Assembly: GCA_003676145.1 (NCBI GenBank)
Contig: NAUB01000020.1
Location: forward strand, 62,001-126,000
Length of the DNA: 64,000 nt
Origin: a gamma proteobacterium symbiont of Stewartia floridana
GTDB taxonomy: Bacteria > Pseudomonadota > Gammaproteobacteria > Chromatiales > Chromatiaceae
Direction: 5' to 3'
The notes under the pieces were generated by a model. The model did no database searches. It saw only the letters and a program-made list of their open reading frames with translations, and was not told the DNA's origin. Below are positions 51,803 to 61,742 of this stretch, piece by piece. The translations under genes were made by a program, and so were the position numbers. The number at the start of each line of letters is the position of its first letter. Position 1 is the stretch's first letter.

Positions 51803-51829
51803 AGCCGGGCCCCATGGCCCGGCTTTTTT
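51803..51829 (+). terminator. Terminator after the small orphan gene
   Basis: A perfect 9-base stem AGCCGGGCC / GGCCCGGCT with a 4-base loop is followed by six T. It overlaps the last bases of the convergent Rieske gene. Confidence 0.92.
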
Positions 51830-52184
51830 ATGCGCGGGGAACAGAGCCCGAAATCATCAAGACCTCACCATCACGCAGCGCCACTTGAATCGGCGAGAGT
51901 GCATCCCCGGCACAGGGGCCACGCAGACAGAGACCATCTTCAAGGCGAAACAGCGCACCATGGGTGACGCATTGAATGTAACTCTGGCTCAAATCGAGAA
52001 ACTGGTCAGGCTGCCATTCGAGATTGATTCCGGTGTGAGGACAGCGGTTTAGATAGCCATACACCCGCTCTCCCTTGCGCACCACCAGAATCTCCTGGGT
52101 ATCGCCTTCCAGTTCCACACTGAAACCCCGACTTCCCGGATCCTCGAGCTCATCAATTCCGCATAATCTGTGTATCGATGACAT
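51828..52184 (-). CDS. Small Rieske [2Fe-2S] protein
   Basis: The 118-residue protein is a single Rieske domain with the cluster ligands in CPHTG and CVTHGALF. Length and lack of a signal peptide suggest a soluble ferredoxin, like those serving dioxygenases or nitrite reductases. No oxygenase gene is adjacent. It follows the PfkB kinase by 17 bases on the same strand. Confidence 0.9.
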   Translation of the reverse strand: MSSIHRLCGIDELEDPGSRGFSVELEGDTQEILVVRKGERVYGYLNRCPHTGINLEWQPDQFLDLSQSYIQCVTHGALFRLEDGLCLRGPCAGDALSPIQVALRDGEVLMISGSVPRA

Positions 52185-52201: not shown

Positions 52202-53053
52202 TTAAAGCCCTTCACGTCCGCACTTCTCTCCGGCAATCCGATTGCCATGGCGCAGCGCCTCCAGGGGATCGCCCGACTCGAGCAGCGCATGGATCACGCC
52301 GGCATTGAAAACATCCCCCGCCCCCAGGGTATCCACCACTTCCAGTGGTTTGACGGCCTGCTCGAAATGCACCTCACCATGCCGATCCAGCATCCAGCTA
52401 CCCTGTTCACCCCAGGCAAGGTAACAGAGCGCCTGCCGGGTCATCGGACCGATATGGTGGAACAACTGTCGGGCATCCGCAAACCCTTTGGCCATACTGT
52501 AGGCGCGGGATAACATCACCACATCCACATAAGGCAGCGCCTGCTCCAGGCCCGGCCTTGGCTTTTCCAGCTCAAGCGATACCTGCAGTTCGAGCGGCTG
52601 TTGTCTCAGCTGCTCAAGCATCTTCAGGGTCGCTTGCGGGTTTCGGCCTTCGAAATGGATCCAGTCGTACGCTTGCAGGTCAATTTCAGCAAAATCCGCA
52701 TAACTGAATTCAGAGAGCTGTCGGTAGTGAACTATCGTGCGGGATCCACTTGCTTCACTGGAGATGATATAGGAGGTAGGGGTCATGCCACCTGATTCCA
52801 CCCGGACCCAGCGGGTATCGATCTGTACGGTTTGCAGTTGCTCGAGGATGAATCGGCTCGCCTCATCATCCGCCATCACGCCAGCCCAGCTGCAGCGATG
52901 CCCCAAGCGACTCAATACAGTCAAACTGTTACAGGCGTTGCCCCCTCGCCGGCGACTTTGTGAAACCGCCCTGATCTCCTGATCCTCTTGCGGATAGGCC
53001 ACGACCCGATTGACGATGTCGAGGGTTGCCACCCCCACTGCCAGAATTCGCAT
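52202..53053 (-). CDS. PfkB-family carbohydrate kinase
   Basis: The 283-residue kinase has the PfkB motif RRRGGNACNSLTVLSRLG at the start and the catalytic DTLGAGDVFNAGVIHAL near the end with the base Asp. The layout resembles ketohexokinase-like and ribokinase-like members, but the sugar cannot be told. It lies between the giant coiled-coil gene and the Rieske gene in a leftward row. Confidence 0.9.
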   Translation of the reverse strand: MRILAVGVATLDIVNRVVAYPQEDQEIRAVSQSRRRGGNACNSLTVLSRLGHRCSWAGVMADDEASRFILEQLQTVQIDTRWVRVESGGMTPTSYIISSEASGSRTIVHYRQLSEFSYADFAEIDLQAYDWIHFEGRNPQATLKMLEQLRQQPLELQVSLELEKPRPGLEQALPYVDVVMLSRAYSMAKGFADARQLFHHIGPMTRQALCYLAWGEQGSWMLDRHGEVHFEQAVKPLEVVDTLGAGDVFNAGVIHALLESGDPLEALRHGNRIAGEKCGREGL

Positions 53054-53178: not shown

Positions 53179-56100
53179 TCATTTACGCCGGAACAGACGC
53201 CCCAGAGAGTTACGTTTCGGATCCCCATCCTCTCCCAGTTCGGATAACCGTGAAGCAGCTTCGGGGGTCTCCCGTGCCGGTGAGGTCGCGGTATCCAGTC
53301 CACCGGTCTTTCTCAGCAGCAACTCCAACTTGCGTTTCAGTTGATCCACTTCCTTGTCCCTGTCTTCAACCGAATCCTCCAGGGAGCGGCACTGGCTTTG
53401 GGAGAGCCTCAGCAGGTGGTCCTTCTCATTCAATGACTGTTGCAGAGAGAGCATCTCCTGACGACTGGCCTGCAGGGCCGCCACTTCATCCACATCCCGG
53501 TTACTTGAGAGAGACTGTTTCGACTTGGCGTGCTCCAGCTCATGACGCATATGTTCAAGATCCTCAGCCGCCTGACGGCGCACCATATCCAGTTCGGTAC
53601 GCAGGGCATTGACCTGCTCGTCAACACCAAAGGATTGTACATCCTGTATCTGTTCCACATAGGTTTCGATGACACTGCGCAGTTCGCCCACTTCCCGGCG
53701 CATGCGGGTAGCTTCATCATTCGCTTCATCCCGCTCGGTCTCAAGGTTCTCAGCCTTGATACGCAGCTCTTCCATCTGTACCAGCAGGTCATCCGCCAGA
53801 TTGGAATCCGATACATGGTCCCGCAGCTCGCTCATCTCGGAATTGAGATGATCGTTCTCATTCACCATATCGGTAAACTGATTGCGCATCTCAGCCAGCT
53901 GCTTGGTCAGGTTGTCCCGCTCCTGCTGCAGGCGATCTTTCTCTTCGGTCAGATTTTCAAGATCCTCACCCAGCATCTCGATGGCGGTCTCTTGAACATC
54001 ACGCTCCCGCCTCAGAACATCCGCCTGCCTTGCCAGCTTGTCATTCTTCTCACGCTTCTTCTGCTCCGTCTCAAGGGCGGCGCGAAGTGCGCTCACCTCG
54101 CTCTCCACATCGTCGGTAAGCTGGCTCTCCATCTCCAACTGGACCTCTCTCAGACCTTCGACTTCCCGCTTCAGCCTGATAATCGTCTCTTCCGATTCAC
54201 TCAGCGCCTGCTGTGCCTTCTTCAGATCATCATCAGATGCCGCTGCTGCCAGGGACTCATTGGCACGACCGAGCTCTTCGGAAAGTGTCGCCTGCTCAGC
54301 TTTGCTCTCGTCCAATTGTTGCTGCAGTTGCTGTTTCTCTTGCTCCAGCGCGTCAAGTTGCTGACTCAAAGAGTCCCGACTGGTTTTCGCTTCCTGCAGG
54401 GAGCCGGTGATGGCATCAGTCCGCTCTTTTTCTAACTCCAGTTCTGCCTGTAGATTTGCCAGCGACGAGTCGTGATCGGCCTGCTGATTCTGCTGTTCCT
54501 GTTTGAACTGATCCAGTTCGGAGTTGAGTTGGGATATCTGCTGCTGCAGATCCTCTTTCTCTGAGTTCAGGCCATCCCGGGTCGATTCAGTCTCTGCCAG
54601 CTGATCGGCAATCGACTCGATCTTCTGTCGCTCCTCAGCCAGTTCAGCTTGCAGCGCCTCAACTGCCGAGCTCTGCTCGGCCAGTGCGCTCTGCTGGCTC
54701 TGTCGGATCTCTTCAAGTTCGGCCCGGGCGCCATTCAATTGCTCTTCCAGGGCCGCTTTGTCACTCTGCAGGGAGTCACGCTCACTTTCCACTTGCCGCT
54801 GTGTCTGGTTCAGCTCGTCCAAAGAGTGGTTTGCCTCAGCCAGTTCTGCGGATAGACGTTCCACGTCCTGCTGCTGTTCAGCGCTGTAATTCTGCAGACC
54901 GTCAAGTTGACCCCGCAGCTCAGCCAACTGCTGCTCCAGCGTCTCTTTTTCAGCCAGCACGGTTTGCTGCTCGCCGGCCACCTGCTGATGACTCTGATTG
55001 AGCTCCTCCAGCGAGCCCTTCGCTGCCGCCAGCTCCTCCGACAGGGATTCAACTGACTGTTGTTTCTGATTCAGTTCATCTTGCAGGCTGTCAATTCGGT
55101 TCTGCCATTCACTCTGCTGCTCAGTCAATTGCTGTTGGCTCAGATCCAGCTCGGTCTGCCGATCCGCCAACTGCTCTTCCAGGGAGATTTTCAGCTGCTC
55201 CACTTCTGACAGTTGCTCGGTGCTGACCTCCACCGCCTGTTCCGCCGTCTCCAGAGAGTGTTTCAGGAATACGGCCGTCTGATGCTCCTGTTCCAGACGC
55301 GCTTCAAACTCAACCCGTTTCTCTTTCTGTTTGCGAGTCGCCTCCTGCGCTTCCTGCAGTTGCTCACGCAACGCCACCAAAGCCTCATCACTGCCCAGGC
55401 GGGACTCTTCAAGGGCTTGCTGAAGCTGCTGCTCGCGCTCAACCGACTGCTCTTTCTCCAGATCGGAAGCGGCAACCTGCTGCTGTAGCTGATTGATCTC
55501 TTCTGCTGCCTTGTCCTGCTGCTCCTGCATCTCGGCAAGGGCCTGACTGAGACTTGATTCAGCCTGTTCCAGCGCACTCTGACGTTCCGCCAAAGCGTTA
55601 TCCTGCTGTTGTTTCTCCTGCTGCAATGCCTCCAGCTCGCCTCTGACCTGCTCAAGTTCAGACTTCAGATTGCTGATGGCCTGCGCATGTCCTGTCTCCA
55701 GCTCATCGCTGGAACTGCGCAACGCATCCAGCTCGTTGGCCAGCTCCTGCTTCTCGCCTTCAAGGGATTCGATCTGCTGCTGCAGCTGCTCAGTACGTGT
55801 CTGCGACTCTTCATATTGATGTTGCAGATCCTGCTTCAGCTCCTGCAGACCGGCGATCTCGTCGCTGGCCTGTTCAGCAGTCAGCCTGGCTGATTCATTC
55901 AGGCTCTCAATCTGACTGTTCAGGTCCTCAACAGATTGCTGGTTGAGTGCCTGCTGCTGATGCAGCTCATCCTTTGATTGGGCCAGGGAGTGCTGCAACT
56001 CTTCAAGCTGTTGCTGATAGCTGGCTTCGGACTCGGAACCCTGTTGCTGCTGATTTTGCAACGCTTCCTGAGCCTCAGCGAGACTCTGTTCCAACGCCTC

Positions 56101-58428
56101 GATCCGCTGCTGATGCTGATTGGCTTCATCCTCTGCACGCAGCTTTTCCTGATGCAGCTCCTCCTGAGCCTGATTAAGGAACTGCTGAACCTCATCGATC
56201 TGTCCCTGATAGCCGCTTTCCGACTCTGCCGCCTGCTGTTGTTGCTGCTGCAGCTCCTGCTGAGCCTGGTCCAGTGTCGCCTGCAGTGTCTCAAGCTGTT
56301 GTTGATGCTGGCTCTCCAGCTCGCTGGCCTTGTCGCGTTGCTGCTGCAGCTCCTGTTCGGTCTGCTCGACAGTTTGTTGCAGCGTTTCGAGTTGCTGCTG
56401 ATAGCGGGATTCGCTATCGGAGACCTGGGCCTGATGCTCCTCAAACTGGCCAGCCAGTCCATCGTGTTGCTGTAGAGCCTGTTCCAGTTCACTGTTCGCC
56501 TGTTGCAGAGCCGCTTTAAGTGACGCCTGCTCTTCGCTCAGGCTGTCGACGGATTCAGTCAGTGACCGGTTCTGCTGCTCTGCCTCGCTCAATGAGTCTG
56601 TCAGCTGCTCCTTCTCACCTTTCAGCCGCTCCAGCTCTTCCGCAAGCTGCTGCTGGCGGGCTTCAGTCTCCTGCTGCTGTTTTGCCAGCTCATCCCGCTC
56701 CTGGGTAATTGTCGCCAAACCGGCTTCGGCCTGCTGATGGAAGTCATCCGCCTCACCTTTGAAGCTCTCCATCTCGGTCAGTAGCCGCTGGTTCTCCTGT
56801 AACTGCTCATCACTCGACTCACGAATCGTCTCAAGCTCGAATTGCAGTCCGGTAATCTGCTCCTTCAGACGCCCCTCACTCTCCTCATGGCGACCATGAA
56901 TCTGCTCCAGCTGCCTATGCAGATCGTCACTGTGAGACTTCACGTCAGTGGCATGCTGTCGGGCGATGTCCAGCTCCTGCTGGCTGGTCTCGAGGCGGGC
57001 CTCGAGTTTCTCAATGCGTTCCTGCAGCTGCTGACGGTCACTCTCCAGCTGCTCGGTTTCGGTCAACCTGGATTGAGCCTCCTGCAGAGCCTCGCGCAGT
57101 TCTGAAGCTTCCTGCTGAAGCCCCTCGGCTGCAGACGCCTCCTGTTCACCGCTTTGAATCTTGTTTTTGGCTGCAGCCAACGCCTGACGCAGCAGCTTGA
57201 TCTCTGACTGCCGCTGCTCCAGCTCCTGATTGAAATGGTTGCGGGTCTCATCGAGCTCCCGCTTCAGCCGGTTGAAAGCCGCAATCTGCTCCTCAGAGGT
57301 CTCAGCAGCACCTTCATCGGCATCGCGATTGAAATCGATGACATTGCTGGCCGGCTGATCCCCGTCGCGGCTCTTAAGGCCTACCAGCACCGCCAGTTCG
57401 GCCCAGTTGACATCGACAACGAATACCTCGGCACCCCGCTCGGTCAGCAGATAGGCGGCTGTCGCAGACTGCCCCACCTCTTCGCCATAGACCACATAGG
57501 CACGGTCCAGGGTCAGGCTCGATGCCTGAAAACGCAGGGAGAAGAAAGGCAGATTGATCGCCCCGGGCAGGTGGCCCTCTTCATACTCCTCAGGAGTGCG
57601 GACATCCAGCCAGAGCGCTCCCTTCTCAATATACCCGGTCGCTTCCGAGTAACTCAGCGTTCTGGATAGGGGCTGCTTGACCAGCTCGATGAAATCACTT
57701 TTGCTGAGGCGCACCAGAACCCCGTCTGTGGCCATCTCAACCGAACTGCCACGGGGTTTATCGGAGATCAGCGCCTCTTCACCAAAACCTTTACCCGCTT
57801 TCAGGCGGGCCAGTTCCACCGGTGCGTGGCCTTTCTCCGGCTGTCGGGAAACCACACACTCACCGCGACTGATCAGATAGAAATAGTCTCCCTCATCACC
57901 CTGCTGGATAATCAGGTCGCCGGCTTGCACCTGGATCTCCTCCATGCGCATCATCACCCGCTGCAGATTGGCTGGAGGAATCTGTTGAAATACCGGAGAT
58001 TGCAGCAGCAGACTCATCCAGTCACCGCTGCTGGGCTGTTCAATGTCTTTCACTTCATAACTGGCGCTGTGGCTGCGTGCCAGCATATCGCTGAGCATAC
58101 GGCTGTCGATGCGCACATAGTTCACCGCCGTTCTGGCCTGTGCGGAGTGTTTTCGCGGCAACTGGTGGGCAAGGGCAAAGCGGGCGGTTGGGGTACCGCT
58201 GCTGATCAGATCCATCTCTTTCTGACCGGACAACAACGCAACCGTACCTGACAGCAGGTAGACATTCTGGTGATCCGTGTCCCCTTCGCGAAAAAGGTAT
58301 TCCCCCTTCTTCGCCTTTTCAACCACAATCTGGCTGAGCAGATGACCCAACTGCTCCTCCGAGAGCGTGTTCAGGGGCACCAGGTTTTTTAGTAGGACAT
58401 CGTCGCTTTTACTGTTTGGCACGGCCAT
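53179..58428 (-). CDS. Giant cNMP-binding, rhodanese and coiled-coil protein
   Basis: One 1749-residue protein. Residues about 13-125 and 140-265 form two cyclic-nucleotide-binding folds; the second keeps the phosphate cassette FGEEALISDKPRGSSV. Residues about 265-350 form a rhodanese domain starting WLDVRTPEEYEEGHLPGAIN, where the catalytic cysteine position reads VVYGEEVGQS, so it lacks sulfurtransferase chemistry. Residues about 380-1700 are a nearly unbroken Gln/Glu-rich coiled coil. The C-terminus RNSLGRLFRRK is basic. There is no signal peptide or membrane helix. It may be a filament or scaffold whose head senses a nucleotide. The role is unknown. Confidence 0.85.
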   Translation of the reverse strand: MAVPNSKSDDVLLKNLVPLNTLSEEQLGHLLSQIVVEKAKKGEYLFREGDTDHQNVYLLSGTVALLSGQKEMDLISSGTPTARFALAHQLPRKHSAQARTAVNYVRIDSRMLSDMLARSHSASYEVKDIEQPSSGDWMSLLLQSPVFQQIPPANLQRVMMRMEEIQVQAGDLIIQQGDEGDYFYLISRGECVVSRQPEKGHAPVELARLKAGKGFGEEALISDKPRGSSVEMATDGVLVRLSKSDFIELVKQPLSRTLSYSEATGYIEKGALWLDVRTPEEYEEGHLPGAINLPFFSLRFQASSLTLDRAYVVYGEEVGQSATAAYLLTERGAEVFVVDVNWAELAVLVGLKSRDGDQPASNVIDFNRDADEGAAETSEEQIAAFNRLKRELDETRNHFNQELEQRQSEIKLLRQALAAAKNKIQSGEQEASAAEGLQQEASELREALQEAQSRLTETEQLESDRQQLQERIEKLEARLETSQQELDIARQHATDVKSHSDDLHRQLEQIHGRHEESEGRLKEQITGLQFELETIRESSDEQLQENQRLLTEMESFKGEADDFHQQAEAGLATITQERDELAKQQQETEARQQQLAEELERLKGEKEQLTDSLSEAEQQNRSLTESVDSLSEEQASLKAALQQANSELEQALQQHDGLAGQFEEHQAQVSDSESRYQQQLETLQQTVEQTEQELQQQRDKASELESQHQQQLETLQATLDQAQQELQQQQQQAAESESGYQGQIDEVQQFLNQAQEELHQEKLRAEDEANQHQQRIEALEQSLAEAQEALQNQQQQGSESEASYQQQLEELQHSLAQSKDELHQQQALNQQSVEDLNSQIESLNESARLTAEQASDEIAGLQELKQDLQHQYEESQTRTEQLQQQIESLEGEKQELANELDALRSSSDELETGHAQAISNLKSELEQVRGELEALQQEKQQQDNALAERQSALEQAESSLSQALAEMQEQQDKAAEEINQLQQQVAASDLEKEQSVEREQQLQQALEESRLGSDEALVALREQLQEAQEATRKQKEKRVEFEARLEQEHQTAVFLKHSLETAEQAVEVSTEQLSEVEQLKISLEEQLADRQTELDLSQQQLTEQQSEWQNRIDSLQDELNQKQQSVESLSEELAAAKGSLEELNQSHQQVAGEQQTVLAEKETLEQQLAELRGQLDGLQNYSAEQQQDVERLSAELAEANHSLDELNQTQRQVESERDSLQSDKAALEEQLNGARAELEEIRQSQQSALAEQSSAVEALQAELAEERQKIESIADQLAETESTRDGLNSEKEDLQQQISQLNSELDQFKQEQQNQQADHDSSLANLQAELELEKERTDAITGSLQEAKTSRDSLSQQLDALEQEKQQLQQQLDESKAEQATLSEELGRANESLAAAASDDDLKKAQQALSESEETIIRLKREVEGLREVQLEMESQLTDDVESEVSALRAALETEQKKREKNDKLARQADVLRRERDVQETAIEMLGEDLENLTEEKDRLQQERDNLTKQLAEMRNQFTDMVNENDHLNSEMSELRDHVSDSNLADDLLVQMEELRIKAENLETERDEANDEATRMRREVGELRSVIETYVEQIQDVQSFGVDEQVNALRTELDMVRRQAAEDLEHMRHELEHAKSKQSLSSNRDVDEVAALQASRQEMLSLQQSLNEKDHLLRLSQSQCRSLEDSVEDRDKEVDQLKRKLELLLRKTGGLDTATSPARETPEAASRLSELGEDGDPKRNSLGRLFRRK

Positions 58429-58781: not shown

Positions 58782-60326
58782 ATGAAAAGATTAAATGGCG
58801 TTGTAGCTGCCGGCCACTCCGAAACTGCAGATGCAGCTGTCGAAATATTAAAGGCCGGTGGTAATGCCTTCGATGCCGTGGTTGCCGCTATGCTCGCCGC
58901 CTGTGTTGCCGAGCCGGTCCTCGCCTCTCCCGGTGGAGGAGGGTTTCTGACCGCTCGGGCCGAAGGCCGGTCACCACAAGTATATGACTTCTTCGCCCAT
59001 ACTCCAAAACGGAAACAGCCATTGCAGGATCTCGATTTCTATCCGATCGAGGCCAATTTCGGCACGGCCCGGCAAACCTTCCACATCGGCCTGGGTTCAA
59101 TCGCCACACCAGGATTCATCCGTGGACTGTTTCTGATCCATCGGCACCACTGCAGACTCCCCCTGAGCGAACTGTTTCAACCAGCCATCAGCCTCGCCAG
59201 AGAGGGTGTTGTCATGAACCACTTCCAGAGTCTGATCACCCAGATCATCGGCCCGATTCTGCGCGCAACCCCGGCTGTGATGTCATTGAATGAGTCCCCC
59301 TCCAACCCTGGGCAGCTGATCTCCGAAGGCGAACTGCATCGACAACCGGATCTCGCCGATTTCTTTGACGCACTGCAGCACGAAGGTGAGGGACTCTTTT
59401 ATAATGGAGAGGCCGGTCAGCAGTTGATCAAAGACTGCGAGACCCAGGGCGGCCTGTTGCAGATGGAGGATCTCAACGACTATCAGGTCATCCTGCGTGA
59501 ACCCTTGCAACTCAACTACCGGGGCAGCGAGTTGTTCACCAACCCACTCCCTTCACTGGGCGGCACACTGATCGCATTCTCTCTGGGATTGATGGCGCAG
59601 GATTCAGCGCGGAGATCCAATAGCGACCCTGAATCCTCATTGAGACAACTTGCCCGCTGTATGAAACTTACCCAGCAGGTCAGGCAGGAGCGCATTGGCT
59701 CGATGGCGCAGATTCTCGATCCGGATACTGCCAAGGCCTACCACCAGCAGATGGATAGTGGCGGTATATCCACCCGAGGCACCACACAGATCAGTATCGC
59801 AGACACACAAGGCAACCTCGCCAGCATGACCCTCTCCAACGGCGAAGGCTGCGGCTATGTCATCCCGCAGAGCGGCATCATGATGAACAACATGCTGGGA
59901 GAAGAGGACCTGAATCCCGGCGGATTCAATCACTGGCAGGAGAACAGCCGACTGGCATCGATGATGTCACCAACCCTGATCATCGAACGCAACGGCGATG
60001 CGCTGGTTACCGGCTCCGGCGGCTCCAATCGAATCCGCAGCGCAGTATTGCAAATCATACTCAACCACATCGATCACCAGATGCCGCTTGATGAGTCGGT
60101 CTCCAATTCACGCATACACTACGAAAACGGCCTGCTGAGTATCGAGCCCGGCTATGATGAAGCCGCCTGCCATGCACTGCTTGATGAGTTTCCTGAACAA
60201 CAGCAATGGAAAAGAAAGAATCTCTTTTTCGGTGGTGCACATAGCGTCATACTCAAAACCAACGGCATGCTTGAAGGTTCCGGTGATGAGCGCCGGGGCG
60301 GTGTCTGGCGACGGCTCTTCAACTGA
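58782..60326 (+). CDS. ggt: Gamma-glutamyltransferase family protein
   Basis: The 514-residue Ntn-hydrolase-type protein should cut itself into two chains and transfer or hydrolyse gamma-glutamyl groups. The nucleophile Thr334 is in GTTQISIADTQGNLASMT, where most family members have TTH. The early LASPGGGGFLTA and the late GSGGSNRIRSAVLQI are typical. It has no signal peptide, so it looks cytoplasmic, unlike E. coli Ggt. No ribosome binding site precedes the ATG, which may mean a leaderless mRNA. Confidence 0.88.
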   Translation: MKRLNGVVAAGHSETADAAVEILKAGGNAFDAVVAAMLAACVAEPVLASPGGGGFLTARAEGRSPQVYDFFAHTPKRKQPLQDLDFYPIEANFGTARQTFHIGLGSIATPGFIRGLFLIHRHHCRLPLSELFQPAISLAREGVVMNHFQSLITQIIGPILRATPAVMSLNESPSNPGQLISEGELHRQPDLADFFDALQHEGEGLFYNGEAGQQLIKDCETQGGLLQMEDLNDYQVILREPLQLNYRGSELFTNPLPSLGGTLIAFSLGLMAQDSARRSNSDPESSLRQLARCMKLTQQVRQERIGSMAQILDPDTAKAYHQQMDSGGISTRGTTQISIADTQGNLASMTLSNGEGCGYVIPQSGIMMNNMLGEEDLNPGGFNHWQENSRLASMMSPTLIIERNGDALVTGSGGSNRIRSAVLQIILNHIDHQMPLDESVSNSRIHYENGLLSIEPGYDEAACHALLDEFPEQQQWKRKNLFFGGAHSVILKTNGMLEGSGDERRGGVWRRLFN

Positions 60327-61337: not shown

Positions 61338-61742
61338 ATGGTTGCAAAGAAAGCCGCAAAAAAGACCGCCAAGAAAACTGCAAAAAAGAAAGTGACTGCT
61401 AAGAAAGTAGCTGCAGCACCACGCCTGAAAGCCATCACAACCAAGCAGACCAAGACACAAATCTTAAGCACCATTGCAGAAGAGACCGGCCTATCCCGCA
61501 AAGATGTGGCGGCTGTATTCTCCTCACTCAACACACTGGTTACCCGCCATTTACAGAAAAGAGGTTCAGGTGAGTTCACCATTCCGGATAGTGGCATCAA
61601 GGTACGTCGCGTTGTAAAACCCAGAACCAAAGCCCGCATGGGACGCAACCCGGCAACCGGCGAAGCGATCAAAATCGCAGCGAAACCTGCAAAAACCGTT
61701 GTAAAACTGACTGCTCTGAAAGCACTGAAAGACAAAATCTGA
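61338..61742 (+). CDS. HU-family DNA-binding protein with lysine-rich histone-like tail
   Basis: The 134-residue protein has an N-terminal tail of about 30 residues rich in AKKTAKK repeats, like histone H1 tails, followed by an HU/IHF fold. The DNA-binding beta arm shows TKARMGRNPATGEAIKI. The tail is absent from E. coli HU. Tailed HU proteins occur in some Proteobacteria and Actinobacteria and compact DNA more strongly. AAGGAG lies 8 bases before the ATG. Confidence 0.93.
   Translation: MVAKKAAKKTAKKTAKKKVTAKKVAAAPRLKAITTKQTKTQILSTIAEETGLSRKDVAAVFSSLNTLVTRHLQKRGSGEFTIPDSGIKVRRVVKPRTKARMGRNPATGEAIKIAAKPAKTVVKLTALKALKDKI

Follow-up and report, generated by a model that had tools for sequence, protein, structure and literature searches.

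The window (the whole stretch of 64,000 nucleotides that was analysed, on contig 31 of a 4.55-Mb genome) encodes a giant protein. Judged from its homologues, it is best read as a derived, lineage-specific version of a gammaproteobacterial protein that is widespread and in many cases has a transmembrane (TM) segment. In the window protein, a degenerate cNMP-binding domain (CNB1) is followed by an intact one (CNB2), a rhodanese-like domain, a coiled coil of ~1330 residues, and a basic C-terminus (Table 1). We tentatively propose, with a confidence somewhat short of even, that the protein may be a cyclic-nucleotide receptor mounted on a very long coiled-coil tether, the far end of which would lie at the inner membrane.

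The sequence-only reading of this DNA had placed a giant ORF at 53179-58428, and this ORF proved real, as a single unbroken frame on the minus strand. The two cNMP domains named in that reading were both recovered by Pfam (cNMP_binding, curated cut-off 27.5 bits), and the profile search of each domain, which it had proposed, also placed Rhodanese above its cut-off. Beyond these three domains, the remaining Pfam matches listed for the window protein were below cut-off and belonged to coiled-coil or unrelated models, and the NCBIfam search returned sub-threshold matches only, mostly to the SMC/Rad50 coil. A promoter and terminator scan gave no usable signal. We infer that the antisense ORFs within the rod are the expected product of rod composition alone.

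Table 1. Features of the giant gene and its neighbours (positions in the window)
Feature	Position	Strand	Evidence or remark
Whole ORF	53179..58428	minus	1749 aa, one uninterrupted frame
cNMP-binding domain 1	58075..58320	minus	PF00027, 37.5 bits; cassette degenerate (ARFALAHQLPRKHSA, without Gly-Glu; alignment)
cNMP-binding domain 2, residues 165-252	57673..57936	minus	PF00027, 65.2 bits; PDB profile and fold matches dominated by PKG and PKA-R
Phosphate-binding cassette FGEEALISDKPRGSSVE, residues 215-231 (Glu217, Arg226)	57736..57786	minus	Conserved across aligned heads
Rhodanese-like domain, residues 266-340	57409..57633	minus	PF00581, 46.7 bits, cut-off 22.2
Gly315 at catalytic Cys position (YVVYGEEVGQSATA)	57484..57486	minus	Alignment; many relatives YCDTGRRSS-like
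Coiled-coil rod, residues about 378-1709	53302..57297	minus	Periodicity, a/d occupancy, indel phase
Conserved distal coil, residues 1430-1709	53302..54141	minus	Homologous to coil preceding TM in six TM-bearing relatives
Basic C-terminal motif KRNSLGRLFRRK	53182..53217	minus	Net +6
PfkB-family sugar kinase	52202..53053	minus	Co-directional downstream neighbour, conserved
Small Rieske [2Fe-2S] protein	51828..52184	minus	Co-directional downstream neighbour, conserved
Gamma-glutamyltranspeptidase (GGT)-family protein	58782..60326	plus	Divergent neighbour, conserved
HU-family protein, Lys/Ala-rich N-terminus	61338..61742	plus	Conserved in neighbourhood

At 83-99% identity, the head has named relatives in Candidatus Thiodiazotropha, in gammaproteobacterial symbionts of Ctena orbiculata (a clam), and in one Chromatiales MAG. 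Therefore, the window is placed in or beside Candidatus Thiodiazotropha, and its congeners are hereafter the Ca. Thiodiazotropha relatives, symbionts of lucinid clams. At E 1e-30, the head was found in 50 of 96 genomes sampled from the family and in 166 of 369 sampled from the gammaproteobacterial class. The head-bearing open frames ranged from about 350 to 2033 aa among the matches listed, and heads of about 350 aa that lack a rod occur in many genomes. The layout had been presented as one without a described counterpart, by implication unique; this uniqueness is contradicted by the presence of the head in the 166 class genomes and by head-plus-long-coil proteins at a shared locus in many families.

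The far ends of these proteins were compared in a set of 63 C-termini of 450 aa, which was hand-picked, contains mainly long examples, and includes the contig-cut L105, so that its fractions are not prevalences. The commonest long form (31 of 63) consists of the head, a coil, one hydrophobic (TM) segment, and an FGE/PvdO-like domain, which is presumably periplasmic. This count was obtained with the FGE-sulfatase profile, and individual assignment by motif and sequence end also gave 31. All 31 assigned FGE forms have the hydrophobic segment (in the 30 that are uncut, it starts 299-405 residues from the C-terminal end), and the coded FGE-bearing examples span 17 family codes. The nearest models of the FGE domain of one such protein (L044) are PvdO and GldK. 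Eight proteins have a TM segment without an FGE domain, and neither was found in nine non-congeneric and 15 congeneric proteins. Of note, in the long head-coil proteins L128, L131, and L133 the TM segment is followed by a different C-terminus in place of the FGE domain.

The long forms also share their genomic surroundings. In 17 of 17 congeneric loci examined, the giant gene and a GGT-family gene are divergently oriented, and the 52 long non-congeneric loci have, on the expected strand, GGT in at least 15, an HU-like gene in at least 25, PfkB in at least 14, and Rieske in at least 21 cases; these counts are minima because many of the stretches end before the neighbour positions. None of the four genes was found in the 13 short-form loci. 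The shared neighbours indicate that the long form is for the most part a single orthologous gene, the neighbourhood of which is old. The conserved PfkB, Rieske, and GGT neighbours leave the function of the giant protein unexplained. Of the neighbours themselves, the PfkB kinase and the small Rieske protein form a pair that is kept downstream of the giant gene across families. The GGT-family protein scored 326 bits against an NCBIfam equivalog cut-off of 358. The HU-family protein, which is encoded near the giant gene in many loci examined, has a histone-H1-like N-terminus.

The second cNMP cassette, which had been judged able to bind ligand, has an intact predicted pocket motif: Gly216 and Glu217 are present in all 83 aligned heads and Arg226 in 82 of them. 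Because the first CNB looks degenerate, the head probably contains one predicted ligand site (CNB2), not two. Four class III cyclase matches were found in the window's own genome and, together with the intact CNB2 pocket motif, lend support to ligand binding by the head. The pocket Arg is followed by Gly in the window protein, and many homologues have Gly, Asn, or Ser at this place. These residues agree with neither the Ala of the PKA rule nor the Thr of the PKG rule. In a profile search against solved structures (best 60 of 194 matches), the Toxoplasma multi-CNB protein PCR12 ranked first, followed by PKG and PKA regulatory subunits. PKG and PKA-R also made up nearly all of the 50 matches listed by Foldseek with the head model, at TM-scores of ~0.3, which are low because the domain arrangement in this model is unsure. 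The structure prediction of the head, another of the proposed checks, gave a divided result (mean pLDDT 72.9, pTM 0.37), with credible folds of the individual domains and an unreliable mutual arrangement. The window protein shares with the PKA regulatory subunit and PKG the tandem CNB fold and the Gly-Glu ... Pro-Arg cassette of the second CNB, but it lacks a kinase domain, its CNB1 cassette is degenerate, and a rhodanese and a rod follow. A weak NCBIfam match relates its CNB to CRP; in contrast to the CRP/FNR regulators, the protein has a tandem CNB and a rod, and no HTH was found among its Pfam matches.

The long coiled coil that had been read from the letters was supported over ~1330 residues by a proline-free region (residues 360-1716) with a hydrophobic period of 3.5 residues. 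The coiled-coil call is based on heptad periodicity tests against composition shuffles: the power at 3.5 residues was 7.13 compared to 1.02 ± 0.16 (20 shuffles), and the a/d occupancy of the rod was 0.67 compared to at most 0.52 (50 shuffles). The rod is Gln/Glu-rich, as also described before (17% Glu and 17% Gln in residues 376-1690), and would be about 198 nm long if it were one continuous coil (computed). When 12 congeners were each aligned pairwise to the window protein from residue 376 onward, 107 of 134 gaps of three or more residues were 0, 3, or 4 mod 7; owing to the common descent of the congeners, these gaps are not independent events. Aligner bias was rejected as the source of this excess, as a simulation of random-length indels along this rod yielded 72 such gaps out of 152. 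The heptad-phase indels thus indicate that the coiled-coil character of the rod is maintained despite the drift in its length. Membership in the SMC/Rad50 ATPases was also rejected, since TIGR02168 scored 106 bits against a cut-off of 567 and matched the coil alone, the head being CNB-rhodanese.

The window protein has an extended coiled-coil rod, as expected of the bacterial intermediate-filament-like cytoskeleton. It resembles crescentin and FilP in this rod and in weak filament-model matches; neither of the two is known to have a CNB or rhodanese head. The protein could be a structural element that acts constitutively, as a filament or a polar scaffold similar to crescentin, FilP, or the golgins; its CNBs would then be fixed oligomerisation modules, and nucleotide would be unneeded. 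We consider this unlikely. The very long Gln/Glu-rich rod, its tolerance of length differences in the middle, and the degeneration of both the first CNB and the rhodanese are consistent with a filament, as is a weak match of the window protein to PF00038 (intermediate filament; 18.7 bits, E 0.0015), which is below the cut-off of 40. At E 0.001 or better, matches among the 63 C-termini numbered 8 for PF00038 and 1 for the crescentin rod model. However, such weak coiled-coil matches are expected from composition. The near-invariant Glu and Arg of the CNB2 cassette, the TM segment of many relatives, and the occurrence of rodless heads, which suggests that the head works without the rod, argue against this account as well.

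The distal part of the rod connects the window protein to TM-bearing relatives. A profile of the distal region (residues 1430-1749) matched 11 of 52 non-congeneric tails, and no match was obtained when these 52 tails were reversed; ten of the matches scored 20 bits or more and one 0.7, with large composition-bias corrections. The profile missed the other 41 tails, reached 3 of the 31 FGE forms (L097, L099, and L103), and found no match among the Sedimenticola FGE forms. In six proteins matched at 20 bits or more (L097, L099, L100, L102, L103, and L104), the TM segment starts 52-86 residues past the projected coil end, where L103 rests on a partial profile match and L097 on a weak one. From the projected coil end to the protein end there are 40 residues in the window protein, 53 in L094, and 35 in L098, and the C-termini of the latter two lie in comparable basic stretches. 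No TM segment was found after the head in the window protein or in any of the 15 complete congeneric proteins.

The basic end that had been pointed out before was confirmed, with a net charge of +6 over the final 12 residues. In Thiodiazotropha, the C-terminal motif is (K/R)(R/K)xxxGRLFR(R/K)K, and its terminal GRLFR(R/K)K is present in 14 of the 15 complete congeneric proteins, the exception being L035, which has no basic end. In the 14 motif-bearing proteins, the linker between the coil and the motif is variable and mostly acidic (net -1 to -9 over 33 residues). Of the nine non-congeneric tails that lack both TM and FGE, four have a net charge of at least +3 over the final 12 residues and five remain below. 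Argued from its position and charge, membrane attachment of the basic end is plausible. The earlier suggestion of a cytoskeletal or tethering protein is upheld for the tether-like rod with its conserved basic end; we rank a cytoskeletal role below a membrane-attached tether because several relatives have a TM segment directly after the homologous distal coil.

Close behind the filament account, and also unlikely, is an account in which the distal coil would bind a membrane protein or the divisome, so that the basic end would be part of a protein-binding site and not a lipid anchor. The distal coil (280 residues) shows much stronger conservation than the rod and also occurs in some TM forms, which agrees with such a binding surface. 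Against it stand the location of the basic motif near the TM position of the six relatives and the variable, mostly acidic linker that parts this motif from the coil.

The rhodanese-like domain is cysteine-less, as had been noticed: Gly315 replaces the catalytic Cys, and the only two Cys residues of the window protein, 191 and 1680, both lie outside this domain. In all 15 complete congeneric proteins, Gly stands in place of the active-site Cys of catalytic rhodanese (thiosulfate sulfurtransferase); after this position, Thiodiazotropha has GQ where many relatives have RR. Because of these two changes, direct sulfur transfer by the Thiodiazotropha rhodanese is unlikely. The domain shares its fold with the single-domain rhodaneses of the PspE/GlpE type, from which it differs in the window's genus by this Cys to Gly change. 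Loss of the rhodanese Cys is one of the traits that are special to the window protein among its relatives.

The position is kept as Cys in 29 of the 31 FGE forms and in 7 of the 17 other non-congeneric forms. Over these 48 non-congeneric rows, Cys loss was associated with the absence of FGE (Fisher p 1.4e-4). Coupled loss of the two, strong by counts, was set aside, as only two to three well-supported independent pairs are available on the tree and the sign test was not significant; we make no claim for it. The same weakness bears on the idea that the protein is a sulfur or persulfide sensor or carrier, in which the rhodanese would pass sulfane sulfur on to a membrane system and the role of the CNB part would be limited to tuning this relay. 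We regard this as quite improbable for the window protein in view of Gly at the Cys position and GQ in place of RR. The Cys retained in most FGE forms and the four Cys present in all 30 complete (uncut) FGE domains speak for it, and so does the lifestyle of the named relatives of the window organism, which are sulfur-oxidising symbionts.

Many relatives end in a domain of the FGE-sulfatase family (PvdO, GldK), whereas Pfam gave no FGE match in the window protein or its congener L029. The stop codon of the giant gene lies 125 bases from the PfkB gene, which leaves no room for a remnant FGE domain. In a midpoint-rooted tree (root set by the midpoint, not inferred), Thiodiazotropha and its sister genus are placed among mostly FGE-bearing clades, and therefore loss of FGE is the simplest reading. 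As far as the compared sequences indicate, the combined absence of the TM segment and the FGE domain is special to the window protein among its relatives. At E 1e-10, an FGE domain like that of L044 was not found in the window's own genome, which contains two further genes of the FGE family; of the 22 genomes searched in the genus, 5 had matches to the L044 domain. That the FGE domain had been split off to another gene was considered and rejected, because the best match in the genus (G015, 56% identity to L044) belongs to an unlike protein of 999 aa. By eye, this G015 protein (L134:1476-4475) has a TIR/NTPase-like N-terminus, a hydrophobic segment, and then the FGE domain.

The head was present in 21 of the 21 same-genus genomes searched, split over two frames in one of them (G011). 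Among 13 congeneric proteins, the window protein included, the length is 1349-1754 aa; residues 1-350 and about 1400-1700 are conserved, and the middle is divergent and variable in length. In the comparison of the window protein with L032, dN/dS was lowest in the head (0.036) and higher in the distal coil (0.104) and the rod (0.146). The head gave 0.032-0.061 in five of six comparisons, the sixth being saturated; the estimates are rough, as 5 of 18 were saturated and several more were near saturation (pS 0.63-0.72). By these estimates, the head is under strong purifying selection across congeners. A functionless, decaying remnant of a TM-FGE protein, to which the missing TM segment, FGE domain, and rhodanese Cys and three split, shortened, or differently ended records (L049, L095, and L035) could point, is very improbable and largely refuted by this selection, along with the presence of the head in all congeners, the conserved C-terminal motif, and the heptad-phase indels. 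In the records L035, L049, and L095, which are congeneric or from the sister genus, the cut or different end of the giant ORF is either an assembly error or real.

In the receptor-on-a-tether reading that we prefer, the chain would form a parallel coiled coil about 200 nm long, and its basic C-terminus would hold the far end on the surface of the inner membrane, at the place of the membrane span of relatives. cAMP or cGMP from the class III cyclases of the cell would bind CNB2 and change the head, while the pseudo-rhodanese would be a protein-docking surface and not a sulfur carrier. Ligand binding could then gate whether a partner in the cytosol is captured or released, at a distance of up to about 0.2 micrometres from the membrane, and the shorter congeneric rods would alter only the reach. 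Eukaryotic golgins and other tethering coiled coils likewise have conserved ends, a divergent rod, and membrane attachment at one end; this is an analogy only.

More broadly, we raise as a doubtful proposal that these proteins may form an undescribed gammaproteobacterial class of giant tethers gated by cyclic nucleotides, in which a PKA-R-like tandem CNB head is carried by a 100-200 nm coil to the inner membrane and a second messenger is mechanically coupled across or along the envelope. Many lineages would add a periplasmic FGE/PvdO-like domain, and the Thiodiazotropha version would have been rebuilt as a peripheral, cytosolic protein with a basic membrane-binding tail and a pseudo-rhodanese dock. 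In the open-access literature searched, no description of the CNB-CNB-rhodanese-coil layout was found. A term search of the main texts of PMC11171427 and PMC6872982 gave no match, and PMC12419801 presents a different CNB fusion. The component domains and the idea of a scaffold are known; within the reach of this search, their combination, its wide occurrence, and the way in which Thiodiazotropha has rebuilt it appear to be undescribed.

A large share of the sampled gammaproteobacterial genomes encode proteins with this head, of up to about 2000 residues. In such proteins, a second-messenger receptor is linked to a rod that may reach a fifth of a micrometre in length and, in many lineages, to a TM segment and a domain that is presumably periplasmic. 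Provided that nucleotide gates the head, they would constitute a long-range physical, non-transcriptional output of bacterial cAMP/cGMP signalling, and the Thiodiazotropha version suggests that the membrane span is dispensable while both conserved ends stay. The own genome also encodes other giant proteins with CNB domains, and kinship with them was rejected because, by eye, they are a two-CNB ABC exporter (L081) and transporter-CNB proteins (L082 and L083). L081 combines two N-terminal cNMP-binding domains and a peptidase-like domain with the exporter, and an HlyD-like gene adjoins it. L082 and L083 are RND/MMPL-like transporters with a C-terminal cNMP-binding domain, which in L082 is followed by a GGDEF-like stretch.
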